From Pseudomonas wuhanensis (GTDB lineage Bacteria; Pseudomonadota; Gammaproteobacteria; Pseudomonadales; Pseudomonadaceae): 64,000 nucleotides of DNA. The stretch is from NCBI RefSeq assembly GCF_030687395.1, contig NZ_CP117430.1, forward strand, positions 2,542,001-2,606,000, written 5' to 3'. The notes below the pieces were generated by a model, which searched no databases, was not told the DNA's origin, and worked only from the letters and a program-made list of their open reading frames with translations. This document shows, one piece after another, positions 7,869 through 26,298 of this stretch (position 1 is the stretch's first letter; each line of letters opens with the position of its first letter). Made by a program: the position numbers and the translations under genes.

Positions 7869-7967
7869 ATCTTCTCAAATTCAGTGGCTTTGACTTTGCA
7901 ATCTGGTACGGGCACAGTCTGGCGCTACGTGAGGATGGATGCCTCGGTGAAGCTTAAGGAGAATGCC

Positions 7968-8594
7968 GTGTTTCCGATCAATATCTGGCTTGCCTATACT
8001 GCCGCGTGCTTGCTTTTGGTACTCGCACCAGGCCCGGACAATCTGCTGGCCGTAGGCCGAGGACTCAGTCAGGGCAGGATAGCCGCTATCGTATCGGGCA
8101 TGGCATCCGGTACCGGAATTCTCTTTCATGTGGCAACCGCTTCACTCGGACTGACTTTGCTTATGCAGACGTCCGCAGTTGCCTTCTGGGTCGTCAAGCT
8201 CATCGGCGCCGGTTACTTACTTTGGCTTGGCATAAAAGTCCTGCGCTCTCGTAGCCTGATTAGCTTCCAGCCAGCGACTCGGCAATCACTGCCGAGCATT
8301 TTCCTCACTGGACTACTCTCGGCGGCACTCAATCCGAAGCCTGGGTTTTTTGTCCTTGCGTTCATCCCGCAGTTCGTCGACCCACAACGCGGCTCAGTGA
8401 GCGTGCAGATGCTGGTGTACGGCATATGGTTCGCCGCACTTACGGCAGTGGGATTCGCACTTATGGGCGTATTTGCCACTGCACTGTCCCGATTTTTGCG
8501 TCAGAGGCCACGACTGGTAAATGGCCTGAATGTAGGGGCAGGACTCACCTTCGTTGCTTCGGGAGTATCGATAGCGGCACTCAGTCAAAAATAG
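7968..8594 (+). CDS. LysE-family exporter
   Basis: A 208-residue membrane protein starting at GTG 7968, with AAGGAG correctly spaced before it; the frame is open further upstream but without hydrophobic sequence. Family motifs are LLLVLAPGPDNLLAVGRGLSQG near the N-terminus and LLSAALNPKPGFFVLAFIPQF in the middle. About six membrane segments are visible. It would export an amino acid or related amphiphile. Its 3' end overlaps the convergent kinase gene by 10 bases. Confidence 0.85.
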   Translation: MFPINIWLAYTAACLLLVLAPGPDNLLAVGRGLSQGRIAAIVSGMASGTGILFHVATASLGLTLLMQTSAVAFWVVKLIGAGYLLWLGIKVLRSRSLISFQPATRQSLPSIFLTGLLSAALNPKPGFFVLAFIPQFVDPQRGSVSVQMLVYGIWFAALTAVGFALMGVFATALSRFLRQRPRLVNGLNVGAGLTFVASGVSIAALSQK

Positions 8595-9103
8595 GATCGG
8601 TCCCCGGATAAAAATCGTTTGGTGATCATTGCCACTGCCTCCGCCGGAGAGGTCAGGGCTGTGTCTATATTAAACGGGGCGTTATCCCACGCCTCATATT
8701 CATGATCCAATACAGACTGCCAGGTTGGTGGCGTCAGCCCGGGAATATCAGTCTTCCTGGTTTCTACCCGTCGCCGGTGTTCATGTTTATCAGAGCAAAC
8801 CACCTGGATATTCACTAATGGAGCACCCGAGCGTGTGGCGATTTCGCTCCACGCCTTTCGGCTTTCGATGACTGGGTTAACACAGTCGACTATGACCGTG
8901 CTGCCGAAACGAAGATTGCTCAGAGCAAGCTCATTAGCGACCATGTAACCGCTCCGCCCCACGTCTTGTGCCAGAGCACCGGAATTTCGGATAGCCTGCT
9001 CAATCGTATCGATCCGCAGATACACAGCACTTGTTCTGGTGGCAAGGTCACTTGCGATAGTCGTCTTTCCGGTACCTGGAAGGCCGCTGAAGACAATGAG
9101 CAT
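8585..9103 (-). CDS. P-loop kinase (zeta-toxin / chloramphenicol-phosphotransferase-like AAA_33)
   Basis: A 172-residue single-domain protein. MLIVFSGLPGTGKTTIASDL holds the Walker A loop at residues 7-15. VIVDCVNPVIESRKAW is the Walker B region and HRRRVETRK the arginine-rich lid. This is the layout of small-molecule kinases such as gluconate kinase, chloramphenicol phosphotransferase and zeta toxins. No antitoxin-like small gene is adjacent, so a metabolic or resistance kinase is more likely than a toxin. The substrate is unknown. Confidence 0.75.
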   Translation of the reverse strand: MLIVFSGLPGTGKTTIASDLATRTSAVYLRIDTIEQAIRNSGALAQDVGRSGYMVANELALSNLRFGSTVIVDCVNPVIESRKAWSEIATRSGAPLVNIQVVCSDKHEHRRRVETRKTDIPGLTPPTWQSVLDHEYEAWDNAPFNIDTALTSPAEAVAMITKRFLSGDRSYF

Positions 9104-9348
9104 TTTATGTCCTTCTATTAGTGAGTTAACCCAGTCCAGGCGGGTTGCCAGTGATGCGGCAGCAATAGCGGCTACCGACTGGCGAACATACCTACAAGGC
9201 TAAGGGCGAGTAAACGTCCGCTCTAGCTTGCTGCATGAGGCGAAATCAGGCATATCGTTCATCCATTAAAAAAAGCCCCCCTTAGCCCCAGATAACATGA
9301 TTTTTCACACGCTCAAGCCTTCCATATAGTCATCGCAAGCCCAATCGG

Positions 9349-9362
9349 AACACATTTGTGTT
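9349..9362. promoter_or_regulatory. Short inverted repeat before the gamma-family PLP enzyme gene
   Basis: AACACA-TT-TGTGTT lies 21 bases before the ATG of the PLP-enzyme gene. It is a 6-bp-arm palindrome at the position of an operator or leader element. The neighbouring cluster encodes one LysR and one Lrp regulator that could use it. Evidence is symmetry and position only. The rest of 9104-9348 shows no gene. Confidence 0.3.
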
Positions 9363-9383
9363 TCATCGATGCGAGATAAATTT

Positions 9384-10646
9384 ATGGATGACAAGATAAA
9401 ACCGAGTCAGAGCCAGAAGGCTGGTTTGGGGACGCGAGTGGTTTGGGGCGGGGAGCAAGTTCAGCATCCCTACAACGCTACCCAGACGCCCATCGTAGTC
9501 AGTGCCGCCTACGGTTACCAAGACATCGATCAATGGTATGACGTGGCGCTGGGTAAAGAGCCTGGTTTCATTTACAGCCGCATGAGCAACCCTACTGTCA
9601 CTGTCCTGGAAGACAAACTTTGCGAGCTGGAAAGCGCAGAATCGGCAGTCGCTTTCAGTACCGGGATGGCTGCCATCAGTGGTGTGCTGCATACCTTCTT
9701 GTCCAATGGTCAGCGTGTGGTTTCTACCCGCGACAGCTATGGTGGCACAAACAAGATCTTTGAAGAGTTTCTCCCTCGTATGGGAGTCGAGGTCACGCTT
9801 TGCGATACCCTCGACATAGAAGCTATCGAGCATGAGATCGCTAAAGGCTGCAATGTCCTTTACCTGGAAACCCCGACGAATCCAACACTCAAGGTTCTTG
9901 ATATCAGACGTCTCGTGGCGATGGCGAAGGGTGTTGGGGCTTTGGTCATAGCAGACAATACGTTCGCGACGCCTTTGAATCAGAATCCCCTTGCTCTTGG
10001 GGTTGACGTAGTAGTGCACAGTGCTACCAAGTTCCTGTCCGGTCATGGCGATGTGCTTGGCGGTGTGGTCTGCGGCACCGAGCATCTCATGTCTCAAGTT
10101 CGCCATTATCGCGAAATCAATGGGGCCTCGCTGGATCCGTTTTCGGCTTATCTCATCATCCGGGGCATCAAGACTCTGGCTTTGCGTCTTCGCCAGCAAC
10201 AGGCGAGCGCACAAGTACTGGCCGAATACCTATGCACTGAACCCCTAGTGGAATCTGTGAACTATCCGGGACTACCTCAACATCGAGGTCATGTCATTGC
10301 TCGTTCGCAAATGCGTGGATTTGGCGCAATTGTCAGCTTTGTGCTGGTAGGGGGTATGGACACAGTGACTCGTTTGTTGCCGCTGCTCAAATATGCACAT
10401 CGTGCGGGCAACCTGGGAGCGGTTGAAACCATCTACGGGCCGGCACGGACAACCAGCCACGTGGAAAACACCTTGGAGGAACGGCAGGCACTTGGGATTT
10501 CCGAGGGTTTGGTGAGGGTCTCCGTGGGTATTGAAGATACAGCCGACTTGTTGGCTGACCTTAAACAAGCATTTGCGTTAGTTCGCAGCAAACAAGGTGA
10601 TGCAATCCTCCATGCTGGCAAGCGTTTCACCGAGGTGGGAACCTGA
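9384..10646 (+). CDS. Cys/Met-metabolism PLP enzyme (cystathionine gamma-synthase/lyase family)
   Basis: From ATG 9384 (ATG 9369 is possible) the protein is 420 residues, a fold-type-I PLP enzyme of the gamma family. Landmarks are YSRMSNPT (residues 64-71, phosphate-binding Y-x-R from the partner subunit), FSTGMAAIS, YLETPTNPT, DNTFATP with Asp191, and SATKFLSGHGD with the PLP lysine at 216. At the position of the Cys after Tyr-Gly in bacterial methionine gamma-lyase there is Gly121 (YGGT), so it is not a standard methioninase. It probably does gamma-elimination or gamma-replacement on a homoserine derivative. It opens the island ending at 17694. Confidence 0.85.
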   Translation: MDDKIKPSQSQKAGLGTRVVWGGEQVQHPYNATQTPIVVSAAYGYQDIDQWYDVALGKEPGFIYSRMSNPTVTVLEDKLCELESAESAVAFSTGMAAISGVLHTFLSNGQRVVSTRDSYGGTNKIFEEFLPRMGVEVTLCDTLDIEAIEHEIAKGCNVLYLETPTNPTLKVLDIRRLVAMAKGVGALVIADNTFATPLNQNPLALGVDVVVHSATKFLSGHGDVLGGVVCGTEHLMSQVRHYREINGASLDPFSAYLIIRGIKTLALRLRQQQASAQVLAEYLCTEPLVESVNYPGLPQHRGHVIARSQMRGFGAIVSFVLVGGMDTVTRLLPLLKYAHRAGNLGAVETIYGPARTTSHVENTLEERQALGISEGLVRVSVGIEDTADLLADLKQAFALVRSKQGDAILHAGKRFTEVGT

Positions 10647-10658
10647 ACTCGGTAAAAC

Positions 10659-10678
10659 TTCCGATTTTATTATCGGAA
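10659..10678. promoter_or_regulatory. Inverted repeat between the PLP-enzyme and permease genes
   Basis: TTCCGAT-TTTATT-ATCGGAA has perfect 7-bp arms. It starts 13 bases after the PLP-enzyme stop. No run of T follows, so it may be an operator, an mRNA processing hairpin or a weak terminator separating two expression levels. Confidence 0.35.
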
Positions 10679-10786
10679 CGTCCTTCATGAATAGTGAAAA
10701 CAATAACAACTAGCGACAATTTAATTGTGCTGCCTAATGGTCGGTTACAAGAAATATTTGTCCGTGCATTTCATGAGTACATAGCG

Positions 10787-12226
10787 ATGACTATCCAAAC
10801 AAAGAATGATCAGTCCGATCCAGCCTTGAATTTCAAGAAAGAAATGCAAACCCGCCACATTGTCATGTTGGCGTTGGGTGGTGTAATCGGTACGGGATTA
10901 TTCCTTACCTCCGGCTACACCGTTAATCAGGCTGGGCCGCTTGGCGCAGTGATTGCCTACATCATCGGTGCGGTGATGGTGTATTTGGTAATGGTCTGTC
11001 TCGGTGAATTAGCGGTACAGATGCCAGAAACCGGATCTTTCAGTAGCTACGCAACTCGATACTTGGGCCCAGGTACGGGCTATACGGTGGCCTGGCTATA
11101 TTGGCTCACTTGGGCAGTCGCTATTGGCTCTGAATTTACGGCTGCGGGCATCCTGATGGTTCGGTGGTTCCCTGATACACCGGTCTGGATCTGGAGCGCG
11201 TTTTTTGCCATTGCAGTCTTTTTAAGCAACGTTGTATCTGTTCGTTTGTTTGCCGAGACTGAATTCTGGCTTTCGCTCATTAAAGTTCTGACTGTTATCA
11301 CGTTTATCGTCATTGGTGGTGGGGCCATTTGCGGTCTCTTCCAAGTACAGCATTTGCAAGGTGCCGGGCTCTCGAACTTTACCCGTGAGGGGCTTTTCCC
11401 GACAGGGTTCTTGCCCATTGCGATGACACTTCTAGCTGTCTCCTTTGCATTTTCCGGAACTGAGCTTATCGGGATTGCGGCAGGTGAAGCGCAAGATCCT
11501 CAGACAAGCGTACCCAAGGCGATACGGACGACGGTGGTACGTCTGGCGCTGTTCTTCGTGGGCACGATTTTCGTACTTGCTACCTTATTGCCCCGAGAGC
11601 AGGCGGGCGTTATAGAAAGTCCGTTCGTGATGGTGTTCGAGCTGATTGGCATCCCCTATTCAGCCGACATCATGAACTTTGTCATTCTCACGGCCCTGAT
11701 ATCCGCCGCTAACTCGGGACTGTATGCGGCTTCGCGCATGCTTTGGACATTGAGTGATCAAGGGCACATGCCTAAGCGCTACGCCAGGCTTTCGCGCCAG
11801 GGCACACCGGTTAATGCGATCGTTTTGAGTATGGCGGGGGCGATGGCGTCGCTGCTCAGCAGCGTGTTTGCCCCTGATACGGTTTACTTGGCTCTGGTAT
11901 CGATTTCAGGGCTCGCGGTGGTGATCGTCTGGATGAGCATCGCTGCGAGCCAAATCGCCTTCCGACGCCAATACGTCGCCAATGGCGGGCGGGTTGAGGA
12001 TCTGCATTTCCGTGTGCGCGGCTACCCTTGGGTTCCTATTGGTGCTCTGTTGTGTTGCTTGCTGGCCTGCGTTGGCATTGCTTTTGATCCTGAGCAGCGA
12101 GTGGCGCTTTACTTCGGTCTTCCGTTTATCGCGTGGTGTTACTTCGTTTATTGGATCACTCGCAAGAAGCGGGAAGAGCGGTTGGCATTAGCAGCGGCTG
12201 CACATCATTCCGCTGGTGCGGCGTGA
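10787..12226 (+). CDS. Amino-acid permease, S-methylmethionine-permease-like (APC/AAT family)
   Basis: A 479-residue, 12-segment transporter; ATG 10787 gives the usual short cytoplasmic N-terminus. [20 protein letters not shown] is the AAT-family entry motif. As remembered, the sequence follows E. coli MmuP unusually closely: [54 protein letters not shown] and [19 protein letters not shown] have near-identical counterparts. S-methylmethionine or a related homoserine-type amino acid is thus the best substrate guess. No mmuM-like methyltransferase is present; homoserine-handling enzymes follow instead. Confidence 0.82.
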
Positions 12227-12276
12227 GTAGCTCAGGAGATGATTGAGCAGAGATAAGTCCCAATGAGGTTGCGCCG

Positions 12277-13167
12277 ATGAGTCAAAAATCACTACCACCC
12301 TTGAATTGGCTGAGGGCATTCGAAGTATCGGCGCGGTATTTGAATTTCACCCATGCAGCGCTGGAGCTGCACCTGACTCAAGGTGCAGTAAGTCAGCAGA
12401 TCCGTCAGTTGGAGGGCCACCTCGGGGTGGCGCTATTCAAGCGCCTGCCCCGAGGGCTTGGCTTGACTGAAGAAGGGCAATCGTACCTACCGGTAGTACA
12501 AGACGCGATCAGCCGTCTTGCAGTGGGTACAAACGAGATTTTTGGCCAGCACAATCGAAGGCATGTGAAGGTGCGTGGCAGCCTTTCCTTCCTTCACTAT
12601 TGGTTGGCCCCGCGGCTCGCGGGTTTTTGTCGAGAGTATCCCCAAATCGACATCCGATATATCAGCAACATTTGGGTGAAGGAACCGGACGGAGAGGATG
12701 ACCTGGAGATTCGCTGGGGATGCGGTGAGTGGTCGGGATTGCACTCTCAGCGATTAACGTGGGACATCCTCCAGCCCGTTTGCTCACCTGAACTTATGAC
12801 CCGCTCACCGATACGTGAGCCTCGCGATTTGATGAACCATTCTTTGCTGCATGTATTGGGGTACGAGGAAGGTTGGGGTTACTGGTTGAAGCGGGTTGGA
12901 GCAGACGATGTCGATTATTCCCGTGGTCTTCAGTTCGACACACTGATTTCCACAATCCGTATGGCAGAACTGGGTCAGGGCGTTGCCTTGGCCCGGTCTT
13001 CCGTAGTGGAAGATTTGCTGAAGAGTGGGCACCTGATTACTCCATTCAGTCACCGAATCGAGGCCAGCGAGTCTTTTTATCTGGTGCGTGAGCAGGCCGA
13101 GGTGCTCTCGCCTGATGCCGCGACTTTTTCTACCTGGTTGGTGGCTCAAGCCCACCGCCTTTTGTAA
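12277..13167 (+). CDS. LysR-family regulator (GcvA-like)
   Basis: A 296-residue regulator. LPPLNWLRAFEVSARYLNFTHAA with LTQGAVSQQIRQLEGHLG is the GcvA-type N-terminus and recognition helix. The C-terminal effector domain includes LEIRWGCGEW and MAELGQGVALARS, typical of the subgroup. It lies inside the co-directional homoserine-type cluster between permease and threonine-synthase-like genes. It is therefore the likely pathway-specific activator. The following gene starts 18 bases after its stop. Confidence 0.87.
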   Translation: MSQKSLPPLNWLRAFEVSARYLNFTHAALELHLTQGAVSQQIRQLEGHLGVALFKRLPRGLGLTEEGQSYLPVVQDAISRLAVGTNEIFGQHNRRHVKVRGSLSFLHYWLAPRLAGFCREYPQIDIRYISNIWVKEPDGEDDLEIRWGCGEWSGLHSQRLTWDILQPVCSPELMTRSPIREPRDLMNHSLLHVLGYEEGWGYWLKRVGADDVDYSRGLQFDTLISTIRMAELGQGVALARSSVVEDLLKSGHLITPFSHRIEASESFYLVREQAEVLSPDAATFSTWLVAQAHRLL

Positions 13168-13185
13168 TTCTGTTCTGGAGTCATC

Positions 13186-14574
13186 ATGCATTACGTAAGC
13201 ACACGCGGCGGTGACGTACGGGCGGACTTTCGCAGTGTGGTTCTGTCGGGACTTGCCGAAGATGGCGGTCTCTACGTCCCGGCAAGTTTGCCTGTCTTCA
13301 CTGAGAAACAGATTGCCAGTTGGTCGTGGCTACCTTTCGATGAGCTGGTCTGGCGGGTGGTCTCACCCTACGTTGGCTCTTCCATGGACGAAAGCACCCT
13401 GCGTGCTTTGCTGAGCGACAGCTATCGAAACTTTAACCACCGCGCTATTACACCGCTTGAGCAGATTGGCCATAACGAGTGGATACTCCAGCTGTTTCAT
13501 GGCCCAACCCATTCGTCCAAAGATTTCGCTGCGCAACTGCAATCGCGTTTGGTGGAGCATTTTTTGGGGGAGGTCGGTGGAGAGGCGCTGATCGTCGGTG
13601 CGACCAATGGCGATACTGGGCTGGCAGCGCTTGAGGCGTTTTCTAACTGCCCGGGCACTCGCATGGCGATATTGTATCCGCGCAATGGGGTAGCGGCTGA
13701 GCAACTCTCTGCCCTGCAGGCGGCAGACCCTGAGCGGGTTCAGCTTTTTCCAGTAGACGGTAATTTCGACGACTGCCAGACGTTGGTCTCTCGACTCTTG
13801 CGCAACTGGCCGTTAGACGGGGTAATACCCATCAGTTTCAACTCCACCAACTGGGTCGGCGTCCTCGCACAGATCGTTCTTTATTTCCACGCTGCCTTGC
13901 AGCTGGGTGGCGGGACACGTCCTGTAGGCTTCAGCGTTCCAGCAGCCAGCTCTGCTGAGATCTGCGCCGGCTACATGGCTCAGAAAATGGGATTACCCAT
14001 CAATCAGGTGATCATTTCTACTAACAGCAATGATGCACTTCACCAGTTTATTCATCGCAATCGCTACTCGACCCGAGTAAGTAACCGAACGTTGTCTCCT
14101 GCGATGGATTTCTCCCTGTTCTCCAACCTGGAGCGGTTCGTTTGGGAGCTGTATGGGCACGATGGGAGTTCAGTAAAGGCGCTAATGGAGCACTTTGAAG
14201 GCTGCGGCGAGTTAAGCATTGGCAACGAGCAATGGCTCCGGGCCCGAGTTCTGTGCGATTCCTATGCAGTAGACGAATCACAGGTTCGCGACGAAGTCAT
14301 CAAGTTGTTCCGTGAGACCGGGTCTGCAATCGATCCACATACCGCTGTGGGCGTTCTGGCTGGCCGAATACATCGACGCAGTCTGGGGGCTCCGATGGTG
14401 ACCTTTGGGCAAATTGCTCCGGCCAGGTCTGCGGCCCTATTGTCCGAGTTAGGTGTCTGGCAGACAGAGGTACCAACGACTCCTGACATTTTTGCTCAGC
14501 CACCGTACTTGGGCAAAGGCGATCTGGACGGTCTGTGCCAGGCTCTCTTGTCGGCGCAGCAGAGGCACGTATGA
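13186..14574 (+). CDS. Divergent threonine synthase paralogue (PLP, fold type II)
   Basis: At 462 residues it has the length of proteobacterial ThrC, opens STRGGDV-ADF and keeps the PLP lysine (SKDFA, Lys112), VGAT-GDTG (138-145), FNSTNW and FSVP. Three conserved sites differ from ordinary ThrC: LAFKDF is HSSKDF, VGATSGDTG is VGATNGDTG, and the TGNFGD loop after FSVP is AASSAE (253-258). The late TAHPAKF is also changed to FGQIAPARS. No homoserine kinase is nearby. These changes suggest a new substrate or lost activity rather than threonine synthesis. Its stop overlaps the next start (ATGA). Confidence 0.82.
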   Translation: MHYVSTRGGDVRADFRSVVLSGLAEDGGLYVPASLPVFTEKQIASWSWLPFDELVWRVVSPYVGSSMDESTLRALLSDSYRNFNHRAITPLEQIGHNEWILQLFHGPTHSSKDFAAQLQSRLVEHFLGEVGGEALIVGATNGDTGLAALEAFSNCPGTRMAILYPRNGVAAEQLSALQAADPERVQLFPVDGNFDDCQTLVSRLLRNWPLDGVIPISFNSTNWVGVLAQIVLYFHAALQLGGGTRPVGFSVPAASSAEICAGYMAQKMGLPINQVIISTNSNDALHQFIHRNRYSTRVSNRTLSPAMDFSLFSNLERFVWELYGHDGSSVKALMEHFEGCGELSIGNEQWLRARVLCDSYAVDESQVRDEVIKLFRETGSAIDPHTAVGVLAGRIHRRSLGAPMVTFGQIAPARSAALLSELGVWQTEVPTTPDIFAQPPYLGKGDLDGLCQALLSAQQRHV

Positions 14575-15008
14575 AGCGCATTCTGGATCCGCTGGACGAG
14601 CGCATACTTGCCGAACTCACAGCGAATGCCCGAATCGCCCATGTTGAACTGGGCGCCAAGGTCAACTTGTCGCGCAATGCTGTGCGGCAGCGCATTGAGC
14701 GTCTTGAGCGAGACGGCGCCATCCAGGGTTATACGGTACGTCTCGGTGATTCCCGACGACCTTCATCGCTGATCAGTGCGGTGATCTTTGTCTATCGCTA
14801 CGACCGCATGCGTGGAGAGGAGGTACTTGCTGTGCTGCGCTCCATCCCCGAGGTGGTTCAGTGTGAAGTATTGAGCGGTGAATTCGATTTGATGCTTCGA
14901 GTCAATGCTGCCTCTCCTGAACGTGTTCACCTTGTCTGGAAGGAAATCTCTGCGATGCCCGGGGTGGAAAACACCGTCACTTCCTTCGTCCTTTCTGCAG
15001 TGTTTTAA
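14571..15008 (+). CDS. Lrp/AsnC-family transcriptional regulator
   Basis: A 145-residue protein starting at ATG 14571, overlapping the previous stop as ATGA, which predicts translational coupling. LDPLDERILAELTANARIAHVELGAKVNLSRNAVRQRIERLERDG is the AsnC helix-turn-helix, followed by the usual QGYTVRLG hinge. The C-terminal half is the RAM effector domain (VQCEVLSGEFDLMLRV). Family members bind amino acids and form octamers. Within this cluster it may sense the imported amino acid or its product. Confidence 0.88.
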   Translation: MKRILDPLDERILAELTANARIAHVELGAKVNLSRNAVRQRIERLERDGAIQGYTVRLGDSRRPSSLISAVIFVYRYDRMRGEEVLAVLRSIPEVVQCEVLSGEFDLMLRVNAASPERVHLVWKEISAMPGVENTVTSFVLSAVF

Positions 15009-15221
15009 GCAAAAAAAACAGAGGCGTTTTCCGTCCCTGTACCCACTTCCTTCGCCTTACGCAGTCACCTGGACGAAAAGCGGACAAGCCGTTTATGGGC
15101 TTTCTGGACGTCTTTCTGTACGGGCAAAACGGCCAACAAATACAGCACTCTGCCATATTCAACTGCCAGAGCTCGACTCTTACGATCTTTCTGTCGAACA
15201 ACGTCTAAGAGGACTGCTTTC

Positions 15222-16262
15222 ATGACTGAATACAAAATTGCCCTGGTGGGTTTTGGTGGCGTCAACCGTGGCCTGGCTCAACTGGTTGCAGATCGTAATG
15301 CCGAGTGGAAAGCCTCTCTGGGTTTTGGTATCAAAATCGTTGGTGTGACTGATCTTTTTCTCGGTTCCATCGTTGCTGAAGAGGGTCTGGATGCAAAGCA
15401 GTTGGTCGCTCTGCCTATCGAGAAGGGGGCACTCGCTCAAATGTCTGGAGGCACCGCTGAGGCGTTGAACGAAGCTGTCATTAAGCATTCTGGTGCGGAC
15501 ATGATTGCTGAAGCCACCTTCACCAACCCGGTCGATGGTGAGCCCGCTACTACGTTCTGCCGCTGGGCACTGGAAAGCGGCATCCATGTTGTGACCACCA
15601 ACAAGGGGCCAATTGCTCTGCACGGTGCTGAGCTTAAGGATTTGGCCCGTCGCAAGGGTGTTGCCTTCGAGTACGAAGGTTCGGTCATGAGCGGTACGCC
15701 CGTGATTCGCCTGGCACGACAGGCTCTGGCAGGCGTGGAGGTTCAAGGCTTTGAAGGCATCCTGAACGGGACTTCCAATTACGTGCTGACTCGCATGAAG
15801 GACGGCCTGGCTTTTAACGACGCCGTCGCTCAGGCTCAACAGCTCGGCTATGCCGAGGCCGACCCAACTGCCGATGTGGAGGGGTTTGACGTCCGCCTCA
15901 AGGTGGTGATTCTCGCCAATGAACTGCTCAACGCTCGATTGAGCGTCAGCGATGTGGCTTGTTCGGGGATTAGCCGCATCAGTCCAGAAGACATCGCTCA
16001 GGCAAGTGCCAACGGTGCAAGTTGGAAGCTGATCGGTTCTGCAAATCGCGAAGTTGATGGCTCGGTTCGAGCGAGTGTGGAAGCTCGACTGCTGCCGAAT
16101 TCGCATCCTCTTGCCGGAATTTCCGGTGCCACGAACGCGGTATCGTTCAAAACTACACTGCTGGGTGCCGTCACTGTATCCGGCCCTGGAGCAGGTCGTA
16201 TCGAGACGGCCTTTGCGTTGCTGTCAGACATCATCGCCATCCATACCACCCACGGCAAGTAA
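15222..16262 (+). CDS. Homoserine dehydrogenase, ACT-less
   Basis: A 346-residue oxidoreductase. [17 protein letters not shown] is the dinucleotide loop, [11 protein letters not shown] the hinge, [15 protein letters not shown] the homoserine-dehydrogenase signature and [22 protein letters not shown] the catalytic Asp/Lys segment. It stops before any C-terminal ACT domain, so the threonine feedback of biosynthetic Hom is absent. With an aldehyde dehydrogenase 13 bases downstream, it probably oxidises homoserine to aspartate semialdehyde. A 213-base gap before it may hold a separate promoter; it contains GAGG-type RBS sequence but no clear consensus boxes. Confidence 0.88.
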
Positions 16263-16275
16263 TAGGAGAGTCGTC

Positions 16276-17694
16276 ATGAGCGTATCCAGCATGGCCAGCA
16301 TCCAGCTTGTTGATGCCAAACAGATTGATGTGTTCAGTCCATTCGATGGTCGCCTGGTGGGGAGCGTACCGTGCCTTGATGCAACCGCTGTTCCTGGCTT
16401 GCTGGAGCGTGCGCGAATTGGCGTGCGTGAGAGTGCCGCAGCGCCTCGCCACCTTCGAGCACGGATCCTTGAGGAAACGGCTCGGCGTGTAGAGCTTGAG
16501 GCTGAAGCGTTTGCCAAACTCATTGTTGCAGAGGCGGGAAAGACGCTGCGGCAAGCAGAGAAGGAAGTGAAGCGTTGTGTGAACACGCTGAAGCTATCGG
16601 CGGAAGAAGCTCGTCGTAACGCCGGAGAAGTGATTCCATTTGAGGCATATGAAGGCTCCGAATCTCGCCAGGGCTGGTTCACTCGTGAACCGTTGGGGCT
16701 TATCGTCGCGATAACCCCATACAACGATCCGCTGAACTTGGTCGCCCATAAATTGGGCCCGGCCATCGCCGGTGGCAATGCTGTGATTCTGAAACCCTCA
16801 GAGCTCGCACCGTTGTCGGCTCTCAAGCTGGTTGAGTGCCTGGTGGCCGCGGGCCTGCCTCCGTCCGTGGTAACCCTGGCGACCGGAAGCGTCGATCTGG
16901 GTAAAGCATTGGTGGAACTGCGCGAAGTGCGGATGATTTCCTTCACGGGTGGTTTTGCAACTGGAGAGTCCATTGCTCGTAGTGCAGGCTTGAAGAAGCT
17001 GGCCATGGATCTGGGGGGGAATGCCCCGGTTCTCGTGCTCGAAGACTGTGATCTTGAACCGACTGTAGAATCTTGTGTATCCGGTGCTTTCTGGGCTGCA
17101 GGGCAGAATTGCATCGGCACACAGCGCATCCTTGTTCATCGTTCAATTTATGAGGACTTCCGTGAGCGTTTTGTCAGCCAAACGCGTGCATTGGTGGTGG
17201 GTGATCCGGACCAGCGAGCAACAGATGTAGGCCCGATGATCACGGAACAGGCGGCGCGTCGTACCGAACAATTGGTAAATGATGCGCTGGCCGAGGGTGC
17301 CGTTCTTCTGTGTGGGCACCATCGCCAAGCGGGAAGCTATGCGCCAACCGTGCTGGAGCGTGTAAGCCATAACAGTCGGATATGGCAACAGGAAGTCTTC
17401 GCGCCGGTGGTCATCCTGGAGCCTTTTGACCACCTGGATGATGCTGTTGCTCTGGCCAACGCTCCAGAATATAGCTTGCATGCGGGACTCTTCACCCGTG
17501 ATCTTTCCAAAGCCCTGAAATTGGCGCGCCAAATTGAAGCCGGTGGCGTGATGATCAATGATTCTTCCGACTATCGTTTTGATGCCATGCCTTTCGGTGG
17601 CTTCAAGTACGGAAGTCTGGGGCGAGAAGGTGTTCGATTTGCCTACGAGGACATGACGCAACCCAAAGTGGTCTGCATCAACGAAATGGGTTGA
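16276..17694 (+). CDS. NAD(P)-dependent aldehyde dehydrogenase (semialdehyde type)
   Basis: From ATG 16276 (AGGAGAG upstream) the enzyme is 472 residues. [29 protein letters not shown] is the Rossmann core, FTGG (223-226) the NAD loop and GQNCIGTQR holds catalytic Cys279. The usual general-base glutamate in LELGG is aspartate here (MDLGG, Asp245). The nearest relatives by pattern are lactaldehyde/phosphonoacetaldehyde and succinate-semialdehyde enzymes. Placed 13 bases after homoserine dehydrogenase, it probably oxidises aspartate semialdehyde to aspartate. It is the last gene of the island. Confidence 0.85.
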
Positions 17695-17757
17695 GCGCTT
17701 AAGGCGATGGTGTCCATCTAAATTTGATCTGTACCCCAAAAACCTTTATGCGCTCGG

Positions 17758-18498
17758 CTATCGGTCCAGCAGAGGTGCCAGCAGCGCACACATGCTGCGC
17801 CAGTGCGAACCCTCCCAGTAAACCCGTTGGCAGTTGTCGCAGCGCAGGAAGTGCGAATAGAGGGCGCCAACGCGTGGCGGCACCTGCTGTCGGGCCAGTT
17901 CCGGGCTGATCTCGTGCAGCGGCAGGTTGCAATGAAGGCACAGGCTGAATGGCCGTGCGCTACGCGCCAGGTCGAGGCGCTCGTACAATTCGCGCAACTG
18001 CAGCGACGGTTTCAGGGCGTGCACGTAACAGCCGTGGCTGATGATCCGCCGCTTGAGCAGTTCGCGGTCGCGGGTTAGCACGATGCGTCCTTGCTGCGCA
18101 GCGATTTCGGCGATCTCGCTGTCCTCGAAGCCATTGTCGTAGAGGGTGTCGAAGCCGCTCATGCGCAGCAGGTTGGCCAGCCCGCCAAGGTGCGCATCCG
18201 CGACGAAGCGCAGCACCCGTAGAGGTTGCGCACGAACCTTTAGCAGCGGGCTGATGTCCAGCGCTTCGAACTTGGGATACACCGCCAGGCGGTCACTGTC
18301 GAAGATCACCCGCTCGAAGCCCACCGATTCGCCGTTGAGCAGCACCAGCTCGACCTCGGTGTGCGGTATCCCGAGCGCCTCGATCATGTGCTTGACCGTT
18401 GCCCCTCGCGCGCACTTGCAGGTGAAAGACTGCCGCCGCCGTTCGGCCGGCAGGAAATCGTTGAGCTCCTCGTAGAAGCGGAAGGTTGCACTGGTCAT
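17758..18498 (-). CDS. Mut7-C RNase domain protein with N-terminal ubiquitin-like domain
   Basis: A 246-residue protein in two parts. Residues 1-85 are a ThiS/MoaD-like ubiquitin fold (ATFRFYEELNDFLP, ELVLLNGESVGFERVI). From about 90 it is the Mut7-C domain: FVADAHLGGLANLLRMSGFDTLYDN and IVLTRDRELLKRR carry the acidic PIN-like residues. A C-terminal zinc ribbon follows (SLCLHCNLPL with FLRCDNCQRVYW). It is a widespread single-copy gene in pseudomonads. It marks return to core DNA after the island, and nothing nearby explains its target. Confidence 0.87.
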   Translation of the reverse strand: MTSATFRFYEELNDFLPAERRRQSFTCKCARGATVKHMIEALGIPHTEVELVLLNGESVGFERVIFDSDRLAVYPKFEALDISPLLKVRAQPLRVLRFVADAHLGGLANLLRMSGFDTLYDNGFEDSEIAEIAAQQGRIVLTRDRELLKRRIISHGCYVHALKPSLQLRELYERLDLARSARPFSLCLHCNLPLHEISPELARQQVPPRVGALYSHFLRCDNCQRVYWEGSHWRSMCALLAPLLDR

Positions 18499-18644
18499 GT
18501 TGAACAGTATGGCAGGGCTGCAGGATGAGCGAGTCTAGTCCGGACATCTTCTCCGGCAGACCCCAAATGAACGGTAGGGCGCGCGGATACACCAGAAAAC
18601 GAGTCCATCACCGAGCTGGTCAGTTCACAATAGGCTGAGCAAGT

Positions 18645-21114: not shown

Positions 21115-22071
21115 TTGTTGGATGCGTTTTCTGATGTGTTGCGTGTAATTCGGCTGTCTGGAGGCGTCTTCCTCGAGTCGGAATTCACTGCGCCCTGGTG
21201 CATCAAGGGAAGAATCTCTGCGGACGATTGCAAACCGTTCCTGGAGGCACCTCGACATATCATTGCGTCGCATTTTGTCGCCGCGGGGCATATGCAATTA
21301 CAAGTCGACGGTGGTACTGCCATTGACGTGCGGGCAGGCGAACTCGTTCTGCTTCCTCACAATGACGCCCATTCTTTTGGCAGCGATTTAAGCATTGCAC
21401 CCATGCCGGCGGGCGAAGTTATCCAGCCGCCAGAAGTCGGCGCTATTTCACGAATCAAGTACGGCGGGGGCGGCGAGGTTACGCAGCTACTGTGCGGATT
21501 CCTCGGCTCTGAAACCCCCTTCAGTCCGTTGCTTTCTTCGCTGCCATCCTTATTGAAATTAGACTTGCGCGCGACGGCTTCGGGAGCCTGGATTGAAAGC
21601 TCATTCCGTTTCGCTGTCAGTGAGATTGCGGCGGGGCGCCTCGGCTCGACAACGGTCATCGCCAAGCTCTCCGAATTGCTATTCGTCGAAGCCGTCAGCC
21701 AGTATGTCGCGAGCCTCCCCGCTGAGCGGCGCGGGTGGCTGGCGGGTTTGCGAGATCCGCATATCGGGCGCGCACTGGCACTGCTCCATGCCCGTCCAAC
21801 CGAGGGCTGGACGGCAGAAGCCCTGGCGCTTGAAGTGGGCATGTCGCGTTCGGTATTCGCGGAGCGATTCACGGCATTGGTCGGACAGCCACCGATGCAA
21901 TACCTGACGCTCTGGCGTATGCACGTGGCGGCTCAACAGCTGCGTGAAGGTCGCGGTAATGTGGCGCAAATCGGCTTTGCAGTTGGCTATGAATCCGAAG
22001 CCGCGTTCAGTCGCGCATTCAAACGCCAGTTCGGCACATCACCTGGCACTTGGCGCAGACAATCAGCATGA
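21115..22071 (+). CDS. AraC-family regulator with Cupin_6 sensor domain
   Basis: A 318-residue regulator, probably starting at TTG 21115 (or 21118) ten bases after GGAGG; no in-frame ATG fits. DAFSDVLRVIRLSGGVFLES starts the Cupin_6 domain, with RAGELVLLPHNDAHSFGSD as its cupin motif. The C-terminus has the double helix-turn-helix (WTAEALALEVGMSRSVFAERF, NVAQIGFAVGYESEAAFSRAF) and ends GTSPGTWRR. It diverges from the diiron-enzyme gene, the likely target. Its last 53 bases overlap the small lipoprotein gene on the other strand. Confidence 0.85.
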   Translation: MLDAFSDVLRVIRLSGGVFLESEFTAPWCIKGRISADDCKPFLEAPRHIIASHFVAAGHMQLQVDGGTAIDVRAGELVLLPHNDAHSFGSDLSIAPMPAGEVIQPPEVGAISRIKYGGGGEVTQLLCGFLGSETPFSPLLSSLPSLLKLDLRATASGAWIESSFRFAVSEIAAGRLGSTTVIAKLSELLFVEAVSQYVASLPAERRGWLAGLRDPHIGRALALLHARPTEGWTAEALALEVGMSRSVFAERFTALVGQPPMQYLTLWRMHVAAQQLREGRGNVAQIGFAVGYESEAAFSRAFKRQFGTSPGTWRRQSA

Positions 22072-22282
22072 GAAGGTCCGGTGCCGATGGATACTCCCGG
22101 ACGAAATCTGCCGTGCTAGCAAGTCGGTTGGCATCGGTCGCAAAGGCCCATTCCCGGAGGCTCACGTCATGCAGATTGCCGCCACGTTCCCACCCATCGG
22201 CGAAGCGGTTTGGCTTGTCGCAACCTCCTAGTAGCGCAGACACTAATAAAACGACCAGCCCGTTCAGCGTTTTTATATGCAT
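22019..22282 (-). CDS. Small putative lipoprotein
   Basis: From ATG 22282 an 87-residue product begins MHIKTLNGLVVLLVSALLGGC, a good lipoprotein signal with the lipobox Cys at residue 21. The mature part (FADGWERGGNLHDVSLREWAF...) ends LIVCAKCQVMCRTGV, with three closely spaced cysteines. I do not recognise the family. It overlaps the convergent AraC gene by 53 bases and follows the cytochrome c gene on the same strand after 119 bases. A remnant gene is possible, but the lipobox argues for a real one. Confidence 0.5.
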   Translation of the reverse strand: MHIKTLNGLVVLLVSALLGGCDKPNRFADGWERGGNLHDVSLREWAFATDANRLASTADFVREYPSAPDLLMLIVCAKCQVMCRTGV

Positions 22283-22401
22283 TCGAGATTGTTCATTAGC
22301 GATATGCCCGCGAGAGGTCGACTGGCTCACCGGCATGGCCCCGCAAGCCCTCAAACCTGAAATGGCTTTTAGATCTCTGTGCCTACCTCTCATCTCAAAA
22401 A

Positions 22402-22779
22402 TCATCGATTTTTTGAAATCACATCACCCATGTATTGATTTAAATCGCGCAGATCTTTAATCCTCCATGAGTACGGCGATAGCTTTACACCATTCTCTCG
22501 CAAAGTTTTTGGAATCAAGTCTCCATTTGGACGAAGTATTATCGATGATACAATTACGCCCGGATAATCATTTAATCGTTTTTTGAAAGCGGATGTTGTT
22601 AGATTAGGTGTAGGAGGATTGCTTTTATTAGCCAATGGTCCTGTTGCTTTGAGATCTGTTCCGTGGCACATGGCGCATCGCTGTAAATAGAGATTTTTTC
22701 CATTAACATTATCTGCGAAGGATAGTGATGTTTGAATTAGCGATAAAATTCCTAGCGAAGCGATGAATAATATTTTCAT
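22402..22779 (-). CDS. Small periplasmic c-type cytochrome
   Basis: A 125-residue protein with a signal peptide (MKILFIASLGILSLIQTSLSFA) and one haem-binding motif CAMCH about 15 residues into the mature chain. A methionine near the C-terminus (QYMGDVI) is the probable sixth ligand. It is a class I monohaem electron carrier of the cytochrome_CBB3 type. The gene is visibly AT-rich compared with all neighbours, a sign of transfer. No oxidase or dehydrogenase partner is adjacent. Confidence 0.8.
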   Translation of the reverse strand: MKILFIASLGILSLIQTSLSFADNVNGKNLYLQRCAMCHGTDLKATGPLANKSNPPTPNLTTSAFKKRLNDYPGVIVSSIILRPNGDLIPKTLRENGVKLSPYSWRIKDLRDLNQYMGDVISKNR

Positions 22780-22857
22780 TGTTTTTATCTTCCTTGATTG
22801 GGTCAGTGTCGACTGGACGCGATTTGGTGCGCGGGAAAGATATCAGCCATCGTGTCG

Positions 22858-22892
<35 letters not shown>

Positions 22893-22938
22893 CCTTTCTG
22901 ATGCCCATTGAATCAACTCGTTTTTCACGCGCATCCCG

Positions 22939-23002
22939 GTGACCGCGTCTGGCCGATTTCTGCCTGTCACGAAGAGCAGCAACCGACCCAAAGCGGCCCG
23001 TC
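22939..23002. repeat. Dispersed imperfect inverted repeat, copy 3
   Basis: GTGACCGCGTCTGGCCGATT at the left and ACCGACCCAAAGCGGCCCGTC at the right, with CTGCCTGTCACGAAGAGCAG between, give the fullest form of the ~65-bp family. The arms pair imperfectly. It follows the end of the YCII pseudogene. Confidence 0.65.
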
Positions 23003-23022
23003 ATGATATTTGAGTCTGGCCG

Positions 23023-23324
23023 TTAGGTGTGGGGCAGCTCTCGAATCTCCACTGTACCGCCAGCCTCATAAACTGGATTACCAGCAAGCAACTCCTTAGC
23101 CCCATCGAGATTGGCTGCACGTACTCGAATGAATCCACTGAGATGAGTATCGCTAGGCTGACTCAATTGACTTTCCGTAGGCGCTCCCCCTGACCAATCG
23201 AGCTATCGGCATCGAATTTACCGGTGCTGCGTAGCTGGGTGATATATCGAGCCCACTGGTCTGGGTCATATGCAGCCTCCAAGTTGGAGGCATCCTGATG
23301 CATCAACAGTATGTATTCGTTCAC
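23023..23324 (-). pseudogene. YCII/DGPF-domain protein, frameshifted
   Basis: Starting at GTG 23324 the reading is VNEYILLMHQDASN...STGKFDADSSIGQGERLRKVN and then stops. One frame over it continues QPSDTHLSGFIRVRAANLDGAKELLAGNPVYEAGGTVEIRELPHT to TAA 23023-23025. Joined, this is a complete YCII-type protein of about 98 residues, a family often paired with ECF sigma factors. A one-base deletion after LRKVN is the likely cause. Neither half would be a working protein. Confidence 0.8.
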
Positions 23325-23410
23325 TTGTTCCCCTTTGTTCACGTAATGCAGGTGATGCTGCTAAATCAGTGGTTAAGTTGATCAGCCTTGTGTCGAATGA
23401 TACTAACGCG

Positions 23411-23440
23411 GAAATGACCGCTTTTGGCCGATTGCATCCA
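23411..23440. repeat. Half copy of the dispersed inverted repeat
   Basis: GAAATGACCGCTTTTGGCCG plus ATTGCATCC is the left arm of the dispersed element. The expected right arm is not found within 100 bases. It lies in the gap between the YCII pseudogene and the HEAT-repeat gene. Confidence 0.5.
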
Positions 23441-23485
23441 GGGACACGAGTGCTGTCGATCAATATGTCCCGCTTTACTTACAAG

Positions 23486-24841
23486 TCATTCTGCAATACG
23501 GGCTACGCTGTCGCTGCGGATGAATCCTGTCGCGGCCAAGTTCCGGAGCTTTTGCACCAATGTTTCTCGCTCGGCCTTTGAGGTGACCGGATCGACGATT
23601 TGATATTGGCGATCGCACCACATCCCAACCTGACGTAGCCAAAAAGCCTGTGCACCCGTTTCAGCGCTCAGCCGCTCCAGCAGGTACGCCACCTGCTGCC
23701 AACCCGGCCTCAATTGAAGTATCGCCTGGCGGCGTGCCGTCGACAGTTCATGCCAATCCCGATCTAATTTTTCGCCTGATCCAGGGATCACAGATTTCCA
23801 AGGTAGCTTGTTCAGTTGAGTGATTGCGGCGTAAAACACTTTGTCCGACGGGTCGTCAAGCGCCCTCAGCAACTCGGACAATTGGTTGTCGCCAAGCAGG
23901 CGTATGGCCGCTTGCCGCACGGAGGAATAGCGAGAGCGCATCGCTTCTGTTAGCCACAGCTTGTCGAGAGCGACTTTAAGTTCGGTTGCCAAGCCAATAA
24001 TACCGAGCCAATCCTGTTTCCGTGGTGGAAAGCCCTGATTCAATTTCTCCGTCAGGATGGCGCTTGCATCGACGTTATGGCGTACTGCTGCCCAGCGCGC
24101 CAAACTACGGATCGAGGCCGATGCATCCAGCAAGGCCTGGCGCAATAATAGCTTCGGATCGTCGACCAACGGCAATAGGGCGCGCAGCACGCAAACACGC
24201 ACTTTGGCGCCGGGTCGTGATAGGGCTTCAAGTAACAGTGGTGATGCTTGCGCAGCTGGTAAATCTTGACATGCTGATACGGCAGCTAACCGTACGGTCA
24301 GCTCGCGATGGGCCAAGGCGTCCCTTAAAAGCACCTCCGGCGCTGAGTCCTTTTCCAGCAATAGCGCAAACAGATAGCGCGCAGCTTTACCTTGTTGCGA
24401 AAGGAAATTGGCGTAGACCTCAGCCTTGATCTCGGGTGACTGCAGTACTGTGCGAGCGGCCATGAGCGTGGGACCATGATCGGCTCTTCGGCGCGCAGCC
24501 AACGCTATGAGAGGTTCCAGCGCGAACAATAGCGCCTGAGCCTGGGATGGAGTCATATAGTGATTCAGCCCCTCCAACGCCAGATCGCGAATCTGGGGTA
24601 CCCAGTCGTTCAAACGCTGTATCAAAGCTACTAACGCTTCAGGAGAAGGATTATCGCACAGCCCCCTGACAGCGACTTCTCGAATGAAGCCGTTGTAGTG
24701 AGCACTGACCTCTATCCATTTTCCATTGTCCTCAGCATTCCCTAGCAGTTCCAACGCTTCGTTTCGCCGCTGCTCCGCCAATGAGGAGGCCGGCATCTGC
24801 TTGTTCTTCAGCCTACCCAGCCATTCCCTTATTAAGTTCAC
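23486..24841 (-). CDS. HEAT-repeat protein
   Basis: A 451-residue soluble protein of repeated paired helices. Repeat cores include FIREVAVRGLCDNPSPEALVALI, DWVPQIRDLALEGLNHY, HRELTVRLAAVSACQDLPAAQ, PGAKVRVCVLRALLPLVDDPKLLL, ASASIRSLARWAAVRH and RYSSVRQAAIRLLGDNQLSELL. This is a protein-binding solenoid without a catalytic motif. No signal peptide is seen. The neighbouring gene on the same strand looks like a contact-inhibition immunity protein, so a role in protection or toxin binding is possible but unproven. Confidence 0.75.
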   Translation of the reverse strand: MNLIREWLGRLKNKQMPASSLAEQRRNEALELLGNAEDNGKWIEVSAHYNGFIREVAVRGLCDNPSPEALVALIQRLNDWVPQIRDLALEGLNHYMTPSQAQALLFALEPLIALAARRRADHGPTLMAARTVLQSPEIKAEVYANFLSQQGKAARYLFALLLEKDSAPEVLLRDALAHRELTVRLAAVSACQDLPAAQASPLLLEALSRPGAKVRVCVLRALLPLVDDPKLLLRQALLDASASIRSLARWAAVRHNVDASAILTEKLNQGFPPRKQDWLGIIGLATELKVALDKLWLTEAMRSRYSSVRQAAIRLLGDNQLSELLRALDDPSDKVFYAAITQLNKLPWKSVIPGSGEKLDRDWHELSTARRQAILQLRPGWQQVAYLLERLSAETGAQAFWLRQVGMWCDRQYQIVDPVTSKAERETLVQKLRNLAATGFIRSDSVARIAE

Positions 24842-24982
24842 TTTTTAATCCTTTTAATGCTCGTGCGGGCTGTCTTGTTAACACTTTAAGCAATTTCTCA
24901 GGTCGACTGCATTCAGTTGGAAAGGATGCTTTCGACCCAAAGCTGGCATGCCGTGTCAAACGTAAAAACCCGTTGGAATGAA

Positions 24983-25252
24983 TTAATCCCCAGATTGCAC
25001 GCGCTCTATAGCTTCGAAAAGCTGGCCGTCGAAGTACTCGGTTCCATTTCGTTCCTGTTCTGCCATGCGGCGTTTTGCCTCGATGAGCAGGTGTTTGGTC
25101 GCGATGTTCTGATTCAAAAAAGTAGCGACCATAAGGTCATTCAAACTCTCTAGAGGTGTGTCCCATGCCTCCCTGCAACGCTGCATTAACCCTGTATGGT
25201 CATCCCCATTCCATGGATCTAAAAGATTCGAGACTGTCAGGTTGGAGGTCAT
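24983..25252 (-). CDS. Small protein resembling contact-dependent-inhibition immunity proteins
   Basis: From ATG 25252 the product is 89 residues. The pattern RCREAWDTPLESLNDLMVATFLNQNIATKHLLIEAKRRM...EYFDGQLFEAI resembles the small CdiI-type immunity family (P-L...L-x-D-L...Q-x-I...H-L...A...F-x-G-x-L), recognised from memory only. No cdiA, cdiB or toxin C-terminus is present. It would be an orphan immunity gene of the kind kept against rivals' toxins. The frame open upstream is not family sequence. Confidence 0.5.
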   Translation of the reverse strand: MTSNLTVSNLLDPWNGDDHTGLMQRCREAWDTPLESLNDLMVATFLNQNIATKHLLIEAKRRMAEQERNGTEYFDGQLFEAIERVQSGD

Positions 25253-25325
25253 GACCCTACCTTTGAGAGAATTGACGGGTTGGTAATTTCTCACGCCCGG
25301 GATATATATGAAAAGCGATATTGAA

Positions 25326-25384
25326 GGACCGCTTTTGGCTGTGTTGCCTGTCGCCAAGGGCAGTAAACGACCCAAAACTGACGG
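25326..25384. repeat. Dispersed imperfect inverted repeat, copy 4
   Basis: AGGACCGCTTTTGGCTGTGT and ACGACCCAAAACTGACGG flank CCTGTCGCCAAGGGCAG. The arms match the other copies though the right one has drifted. It sits between the immunity-like gene and the GNAT gene, which diverge here. Confidence 0.6.
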
Positions 25385-25479
25385 TGAAGCAGAGCCAGCT
25401 ACTGGTTCGTACTTGGGCGCAAGCGTATTGTTCGATGCGCTTTCCCTCCCTTGGAAATCTTCAAAAAAGGACGACTTAC

Positions 25480-26280
25480 ATGGATGTTGAACTGGCACAT
25501 CAGATTGAGGCCGCAGAAAGCGAGTATTTGCGTTCGCGTGTTCAGAACTTGGCAGGGATAAGTGGAAATCCTTATGGCGCACGTGTTTTTTCCAACGGAG
25601 ACTTTCCGTGCTTTCAGGTGAACGCATCACCTAGCCCAATGTTCAACCGCATCTACGGCGACAGCGCCCGTGATCCCCAGGCACTTTTGAAGTTGCTCAA
25701 AGATTCAGCGGAACATTCGGTCGTAACTCCCCTTATCGGGAAACCTTCCGCGTTGGGACAGTACTCACTTGTGGGCGAAACGCAGCTTGAGCGTTTGAGG
25801 GGCTGGACTCACTTGCAGTTCGCGTGTGCCATCGAGAAGGTGGTCTTGAGTCGCCACTCATTCCAAATCGAGGAAGTCACGTCAAAAACTCTTGCTCAGT
25901 TCGCAGATGTGCATGCGGGTGGTTTTCATACCAAACCAGAGTACCGATTACTGAATCAAGCATCCTTCGCAGAGCAGACGTCGAGCGGACGTCTGAAAAT
26001 CTGCGTCCTGAAGGCTGATGGGAAAGTCGTGGCAGGAGCCTCAATGTATTTGGCCAGTAATGGCATTGCCTACCTTGGAACGGCTGCCACCCGAAAGGAT
26101 GCCCGGGGCCTTGGCTACCATGGAGCACTGATATCTCATCGAATTGAGCAAGCGAAGAAGCATGGCTGCCACTTGATCGCCGCGACCGCGCTGGCCAGCT
26201 CCCAAAGTCGCCGAAATCTGCAACGTGCCGGGTTGACGACATCTCATGCCCAGGCACTGTACCGCCTCGCAGATAACTAA
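25480..26280 (+). CDS. GNAT-family N-acetyltransferase
   Basis: A 266-residue protein starting at ATG 25480 (AAGG nine bases before). The GNAT fold is in the C-terminal half: VLKADGKVVAGASMYLASNGIAYLGTAATRKDARGLGYHGALISHRIEQAKKHG has the beta4 strand and the R-x-x-G-x-G/A pyrophosphate loop, and SSQSRRNLQRAGL the late helix. The N-terminal 130 residues look like a substrate-side extension (ASPSPMFNRIYG), as in two-part GNATs. The substrate is unknown. It is followed by another copy of the dispersed repeat. Confidence 0.8.
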   Translation: MDVELAHQIEAAESEYLRSRVQNLAGISGNPYGARVFSNGDFPCFQVNASPSPMFNRIYGDSARDPQALLKLLKDSAEHSVVTPLIGKPSALGQYSLVGETQLERLRGWTHLQFACAIEKVVLSRHSFQIEEVTSKTLAQFADVHAGGFHTKPEYRLLNQASFAEQTSSGRLKICVLKADGKVVAGASMYLASNGIAYLGTAATRKDARGLGYHGALISHRIEQAKKHGCHLIAATALASSQSRRNLQRAGLTTSHAQALYRLADN

Positions 26281-26298
26281 GATAAACGGCTGAACACG

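Follow-up and report, generated by a model that had tools for sequence, protein, structure and literature searches.

Positions 9369-17694 of a stretch of Pseudomonas wuhanensis DNA (contig NZ_CP117430.1, positions 2,542,001 to 2,606,000; 64,000 nucleotides, hereafter the window) hold seven genes that, on balance, we believe to be a catabolic operon. We propose that a permease imports a gamma-substituted cationic amino acid, that a pyridoxal phosphate (PLP)-dependent enzyme converts it to homoserine, and that homoserine is drained to aspartate by a homoserine dehydrogenase (Hom) and an aldehyde dehydrogenase (ALDH). The proposal is built on the gene content of this island, its conserved order, the clade membership of Hom and ALDH, and the sharing of a module with canavanine-type operons, all of which are observed; its least certain parts are the substrate and the role of a threonine synthase (ThrC)-like protein.

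Specifically, the permease would take up a positively charged 2-aminobutyrate substituted at the gamma position, with S-methylmethionine as our first choice. The PLP enzyme would expel the gamma group (dimethyl sulfide, if the substrate is S-methylmethionine) through a vinylglycine-type PLP intermediate, and addition of water would yield homoserine. Hom, presumed to run in the oxidative direction, would then convert homoserine to aspartate semialdehyde, the likely substrate from which ALDH would form aspartate. Of the two regulators, LysR may govern the front of the island (PLP enzyme and permease) and Lrp the back (Hom and ALDH).

Organization of the island

The seven open reading frames (ORFs) are as follows.

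9369..10646 (start at 9369 or 9384), + strand: gamma-family Cys/Met PLP enzyme of the PRK08249/NF006097 type, PLP lysine K221; proposed gamma-lyase yielding homoserine
10787..12226 (ORF open from 10694), + strand: APC amino-acid permease, MmuP-like, 57% identical to Escherichia coli MmuP
12277..13167, + strand: LysR-family regulator, GcvA-like; proposed partner of the PLP enzyme and transporter
13186..14574, + strand: threonine-synthase-like protein whose loop and motifs are altered (family models, motif comparison)
14571..15008, + strand: Lrp/AsnC regulator, in ATGA overlap with the ThrC-like gene
15222..16262, + strand: homoserine dehydrogenase without an ACT domain, catabolic clade (family models, tree)
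16276..17694, + strand: aldehyde dehydrogenase (PF00171); proposed to oxidize aspartate semialdehyde

An earlier note on this DNA had described seven genes of these families on one strand, and both points are borne out by the ORFs and by family models. The PLP enzyme scores 727.6 bits against NF006097 (cut-off 600), the permease 430.6 against PF00324, Hom 466.4 against NF004912 (cut-off 373) and ALDH 468.7 against PF00171; the ThrC-like protein lies barely above the TIGR00260 cut-off (176.1 against 167.1), and the best GcvA model of the LysR protein falls below its own (269.1 against 288). The best named protein match, among the best 120 of 7516, is from Pseudomonas farris (97%). Several structural details of the note were likewise reproduced: 13 bases separate the Hom stop from the ALDH ATG; the ThrC-like and Lrp genes do overlap, by 40 bases counting from the first GTG of Lrp or by a 4-base ATGA with a start at 14571, which gives the 145-residue Lrp ORF seen in 12 of 20 relatives; the Pfam matches of Hom (346 residues) include no ACT domain; and the biosynthetic partners asd, homoserine kinase and aspartokinase are absent from the seven genes. 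The gap between Lrp and Hom is 213 bases. For the permease, 10787 may be the true start instead of 10694, as the closest relative (L034) has an ORF of 479 residues and relatives range from 476 to 519.

Conservation across Pseudomonas

In a sample of 199 Pseudomonas genomes, own genome included, the PLP enzyme (E<=1e-120) was found in 32 and Hom (E<=1e-60) in 33. Both occurred in 31 genomes where 5.3 would be expected (hypergeometric 9e-33, a value that ignores shared ancestry). The odd cases are G076, in which a contig end breaks the island (L061); G111, which carries the ThrC-like, Lrp, Hom and ALDH genes with a CycA-like permease and no gamma-family PLP enzyme (L059); and G134, with a canavanine-type locus (L058). 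Of the 32 genomes with the PLP enzyme, 31 also have a permease of at least 80% identity, which none of the rest of the sample has; G076 is again the exception, its permease ORF being in two pieces. Long stretches were taken from 20 of the 31 non-self genomes, and all seven genes are in order in 18 of these; in L038 a contig end interrupts the island, whose Hom and ALDH are on a separate contig (L060), and the Hom-ALDH pair of L048 lies about 10 kb off (L062). Beyond the genus the PLP enzyme is rare, with 4 of 369 genomes positive in a sample of the class and 3 of 398 in a sample of the phylum (own genome counted in each). The joint occurrence of the PLP enzyme and Hom makes the island more than a chance assembly.

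Hom and ALDH as a probable homoserine drain

Hom is 63.5% identical to the Hom on pRL8 of Rhizobium johnstonii 3841. After the pRL8 gene comes an ALDH that shares 65% identity with that of the window, and an Lrp gene is nearby; the Hom-ALDH pair sits near the published homoserine catabolism cluster of Rhizobium. The pRL8 stretch differs in having a homoserine-kinase-like gene in place of the ThrC-like one, and no PRK08249-type enzyme is annotated in the part read. Since the match is the only one in that plasmid record, we take this Hom to be pRL80071. According to excerpts of two papers, pRL80071, a putative homoserine dehydrogenase, is raised specifically in the pea rhizosphere (PMC3333776), and its orthologue belongs to a dehydrogenase group described as strongly one-way in the direction of homoserine oxidation (PMC10228743).

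A tree of 45 Hom sequences groups the catabolic Homs of Proteobacteria in a single clade with moderate support (91/87), and the biosynthetic Hom is distant. The 13 Bacillota Homs sampled for the tree fall outside this moderately supported clade, as if Hom had been paired with the PLP enzyme separately there. The Hom and ALDH of the window group with the pRL8 pair and with the canavanine-type pair described below, away from the biosynthetic Hom. ALDH keeps its catalytic cysteine. Furthermore, its motif MDLGGN has Asp in the 26 copies of island, canavanine and CycA type that were compared as well as in two rhizobial copies, at a site that is usually Glu in ALDHs; DoeC of Salinivibrio has Glu there, and the Priestia copy is unmatched by the pattern used. 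Two papers name P. putida PP_0665, a locus that may correspond to this ALDH, as an isozyme of glyceraldehyde-3-phosphate dehydrogenase. Because Lrp-Hom-ALDH recurs in the canavanine-type loci and Hom-ALDH on pRL8, the homoserine-to-aspartate drain is well supported. The catabolic route from homoserine through aspartate semialdehyde to aspartate, first put forward in the earlier note, appears quite likely from the kinship of both enzymes.

The PLP enzyme and the ectoine-type operons of Bacillota

The best non-pseudomonad relatives of the PLP enzyme in a plasmid collection are from Priestia (59.8%) and Klebsiella (53.4%), and the one region read for each is an ectoine-degradation operon. Genome contigs were scanned with the window, Priestia and Klebsiella sequences; the best 80 of 536 confirmed loci were retained by likeness to the Priestia protein, a ranking biased to Bacillota (7 of the 80 are under 15 kb), and their neighbours were called by tblastn (E<=1e-12, half of the query). 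Within these 80 loci, neighbours comprise DoeA-like genes (78), Hom (67), an M20 deacetylase (67), ALDH (64), EutC (38) and EutB (31); one Bacillota Hom copy compared with that of the window is 45% identical. A DoeB query gave zero matches in the same loci, and a DoeD query matched at E<1e-8 in four (three Shouchella at about 28%, one at 23%), leaving 76 with none. These data suggest that in Bacillota the PLP enzyme and Hom may together do the work of DoeD, and the M20 protein that of DoeB, on a predicted path from 2,4-diaminobutyrate through homoserine to the semialdehyde. The PLP enzyme is missing from all four of the other DoeA-type plasmid regions read as a thin control, and only the Salinivibrio one shows a DoeD-like gene nearby. 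The missing DoeD is thus weak evidence, because DoeD is often not beside DoeA anyway. Excerpts of the literature place ectoine consumers in Proteobacteria only (a 2018 review, PMC5924519) and, for the Aquibacillus-group genomes of a 2023 study, report doeA as the sole degradation gene across all taxa and judge ectoine to be mainly an osmolyte (PMC10203224).

The loci themselves (L063, L068-L147) are ectoine-type operons of Bacillota in which a PRK08249 PLP enzyme is mostly accompanied by Hom and ALDH, and most of them show no DoeD-like gene nearby. One record, L073, is titled Pseudomonas sp. ISL-84 and has a Bacillota-like ectoine locus, 91% to Priestia; it is probably mislabelled or contaminated. 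The PLP enzyme genes of G705, G388, G463 and G559 lie in contexts (L065-L067 and L159) that the references used do not identify as ectoine operons.

A tree of the PLP enzyme (58 rows, 20 of them drawn from the 80 scan sequences, the own-genome paralogue L153 left out) places the Pseudomonas clade, together with G616 and G705 (100/100, stem 1.31), inside a clade of Bacillota-scan sequences (99/98). Klebsiella and marine sequences lie outside the latter, and joins among distant outgroups involve long branches. Pocket motifs are mostly common to both sides (YGGTNK, R248, E249, N251 and R360; the L153 column is empty). However, 24 positions separate the Pseudomonas from the Bacillota enzymes, each side at least 95% uniform (for example N72M, T132E and A347G). 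The long stem and these near-fixed differences suggest a changed substrate.

The nesting of the Pseudomonas clade, the shared pocket motifs and the frequency of DoeA-like, Hom and ALDH genes without a DoeD-like match together favour L-2,4-diaminobutyrate as the substrate in the window as well, with gamma-ammonium expelled to give homoserine as proposed for the Bacillota operons. We nevertheless consider this unlikely. The Bacillota enzyme, 60% identical, also stands with Hom and ALDH in ectoine degradation operons (doeABCD/eut), yet the island lacks DoeA, DoeB and an ectoine transporter, and a search of the own genome for ectoine hydrolase (DoeA/EutD) gave one 23.5-bit partial match only. The permease is MmuP-like, the stem and the near-fixed differences point to another substrate, and the scarcity of DoeD-like genes in the four other DoeA-type regions weakens any argument from the absence of DoeD.

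We also rejected methionine gamma-lyase as an identity for the PLP enzyme, which scores 380.6 bits against a cut-off of 549.7 in that model and has YGG where YGC is expected; this cysteine is presumably functional in methionine gamma-lyase.

The permease and the choice of substrate

Among NCBIfam models, the permease scores highest with NF008484 (S-methylmethionine permease), where its 660.9 bits fall just short of the cut-off of 716; the next, PRK10836, reaches 399.5. Relatives in Niallia and Halomonas (the Halomonas ORF is in pieces) precede MmuM-like genes. The island resembles E. coli mmuPM in having a permease 57% identical to MmuP but differs in placing a gamma-family PLP enzyme beside it; MmuM is absent from the island, and the own genome has a single 46-bit partial match elsewhere. 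According to excerpts of PMC10729969, S-methylmethionine can be converted to dimethyl sulfide by methionine gamma-lyases, and a yeast homologue of these lyases, HSU1, shares a segment with the S-methylmethionine permease MMP1.

Several observations weigh against the reading that we favour. The nearest permeases outside the island (64-69%) adjoin other PLP enzymes: on the K. variicola plasmids L163 and L164 the neighbour is a different Cys/Met PLP enzyme (one compared, 36%), and in L169 and L170 (64-65%) it is an aminotransferase-family enzyme that exceeds the cut-off of PRK07324, with GntC and VioD the next models, below theirs. MmuP kinship therefore does not fix the substrate. Similarly, in five genomes examined outside the genus, only G616 has a catabolic Hom; G705, whose PLP enzyme is 78% identical, and G388, G463 and G559 have none, their matches being about 40% and of biosynthetic type. 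The transporter neighbouring the enzyme in G705 is an ABC system instead of the permease, and the annotation of the Klebsiella plasmid stretch that was read shows no Hom. Because a catabolic Hom does not always accompany the PLP enzyme, homoserine is not necessarily the product of this enzyme everywhere. For the window we still think it rather likely that the PLP enzyme yields homoserine.

In the permease tree, the island and K. variicola sequences are joined (97/100), apart from the E. coli and Niallia MmuP. L163 and L164 both carry the MmuP-like permease, a LysR gene, the other Cys/Met PLP enzyme and a DMT-type transporter; in L163 the first three are 69%, 51% and 36% identical to those of the island. 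Cationic amino acids would fit these permease partners. S-methylmethionine is the best single guess and a real possibility, though we stop short of calling it probable and reject it as a settled substrate, since the closest permeases pair with other PLP enzymes; 2,4-diaminobutyrate has a small share, and some other compound takes up what is left.

A further alternative is that free homoserine, or an O-acyl or otherwise O-substituted homoserine, is used, with acylhomoserine or cystathionine as the substrate of the PLP enzyme. The family neighbours of the enzyme act on O-acetyl- and O-succinylhomoserine, cystathionine and methionine, and the module of L059 has a CycA-like permease but lacks a gamma-family PLP enzyme. 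The PLP enzyme of the window nevertheless matches a separate subfamily and scores well below the cut-offs of the named enzymes (25 models shown), and we hold this alternative, too, to be improbable. The earlier note had left the choice between homoserine and a homoserine-yielding, putatively plant-derived compound; the second half of that claim gains and the first loses, because a gamma-family PLP enzyme, a permease and a LysR gene head the operon. In L059 the module does exist without that enzyme, paired with another permease.

Canavanine-type loci share the back half

Four island genomes (G079, G112, G165 and G173) have a second Hom of 65-67% identity, and G134 has one of 68%. The five corresponding loci (L054-L058) combine Lrp-Hom-ALDH with a different gamma-family PLP enzyme, 35-37% identical to that of the window and 78-100% identical to that of L054. 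A ThrC-like gene directly precedes Lrp in L054-L057 and lies about 8 kb further on in L058, and a DapA-like gene is present in four of the five. In all five there is a B3/4 gene that shares 58-61% identity with a B3/4-domain protein annotated on an Agrobacterium plasmid; the operon there comprises Hom, ALDH, DapA, aspartase, a homoserine-kinase-like gene, Lrp and a PLP enzyme with 75% identity to the L054 one. Excerpts of PMC10018355 describe a B3/4 protein, an editor of canavanyl-tRNA, that directly precedes the canavanine degradation operon, whose enzyme yields homoserine and hydroxyguanidine. From the B3/4 gene, the gene content and this description, we infer that L054-L058 are canavanine operons. 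The B3/4 count per genome proved unusable as a marker, as at least two matches occur in 35 of the 199 genomes, the five canavanine-type genomes among them; B3/4 beside the PLP enzyme serves instead.

With the canavanine operons of Pseudomonas canavaninivorans and rhizobia (canavanine gamma-lyase, CtdA), the island shares a gamma-family PLP enzyme, Lrp, Hom and ALDH with their Hom-ALDH drain, a presumed homoserine intermediate and, in four of the five Pseudomonas loci, the ThrC-like gene. That the island is itself a canavanine utilization operon is nonetheless very improbable. Its PLP enzyme is about 36% identical to the canavanine type and in a separate clade, whereas the canavanine enzyme is 75% conserved between L054 and Agrobacterium. 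The B3/4 protein (CtdA, the tRNA editor) has no match in the 20 long island stretches, and the own genome has no stand-alone copy, PheT being its only B3/4 match, which argues that the window holds something other than a canavanine operon. The island also lacks the aspartase gene (aspartase is present in the two rhizobial operons read), and it has an MmuP-like permease where the canavanine operons, two of them compared, have AnsP-like or ABC transport. Four genomes (G079, G112, G165 and G173) carry both systems. On the absence of CtdA and the other type of PLP enzyme, we rejected this identity. The enzyme names would allow a biosynthetic or house-keeping role in threonine or methionine metabolism, which was dismissed as most improbable, given a canonical Hom-ThrC pair elsewhere in the genome (L002), a PLP enzyme in only 32 of the 199 genomes and a Hom in the catabolic clade.

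The ThrC-like protein and the regulators

Compared with canonical ThrC, the ThrC-like protein keeps the PLP lysine but has AASSAE for GNFGD, NGDTG for SGDTG and SSKD for AFKD; the GNFGD loop we take to be functionally important in threonine synthase. The family match behind the earlier note's threonine-synthase paralogue holds, with TIGR00260 just over its cut-off, but the protein probably does not work as a threonine synthase, an identity rejected on loop and motifs. In L054-L057, Gln replaces the PLP lysine (VYQD), and the protein looks like a pseudoenzyme paired with Lrp. The tight gene pair with Lrp suggests that the ThrC-like protein may be a ligand-binding partner or have a new activity. 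In rhizobial operons (L161, L167 and L168), a homoserine-kinase-like or phosphotransferase gene takes its place beside Lrp. A 67% relative of LysR lies near the PLP enzyme in L159, of a sister family, where an amino-acid ABC transporter adjoins the enzyme and the genome is without a catabolic Hom.

Implications

As a broader and tentative generalization, which we think unlikely, the PRK08249 family could represent a new class of PLP gamma-lyases for gamma-onium amino acids: in Bacillota they would release ammonium from 2,4-diaminobutyrate, bypassing DoeD, and in pseudomonads they would have been re-tuned to release dimethyl sulfide from S-methylmethionine, both draining homoserine to aspartate through separately recruited Hom and ALDH. 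The canavanine case is known to specialists; new here are the different front end, the link to Bacillota ectoine operons and the altered ThrC-like partner. If correct, homoserine drainage would be a reusable catabolic module for different gamma-lyases, the island would supply candidate genes for the conversion of S-methylmethionine to dimethyl sulfide in pseudomonads, and a transaminase-free ectoine route would be predicted in Bacillota. Literature searches, whose coverage excluded most subscription papers, returned no recognizable description of the proposed routes.

Flanking features

The host genome is a single contig of 6.59 Mb. Scans for promoters (5 promoter-like sites against 5.6 in shuffles) and terminators (12 against 9.0) were near chance, and an Rfam scan of 8500-18500 gave zero matches. 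Upstream of the island, window positions 7884-8594 encode a LysE/RhtB-type exporter, with an opposite-strand gene in between. At window positions 22001-28000, the G+C content is 0.51-0.54, below that of most of the window.

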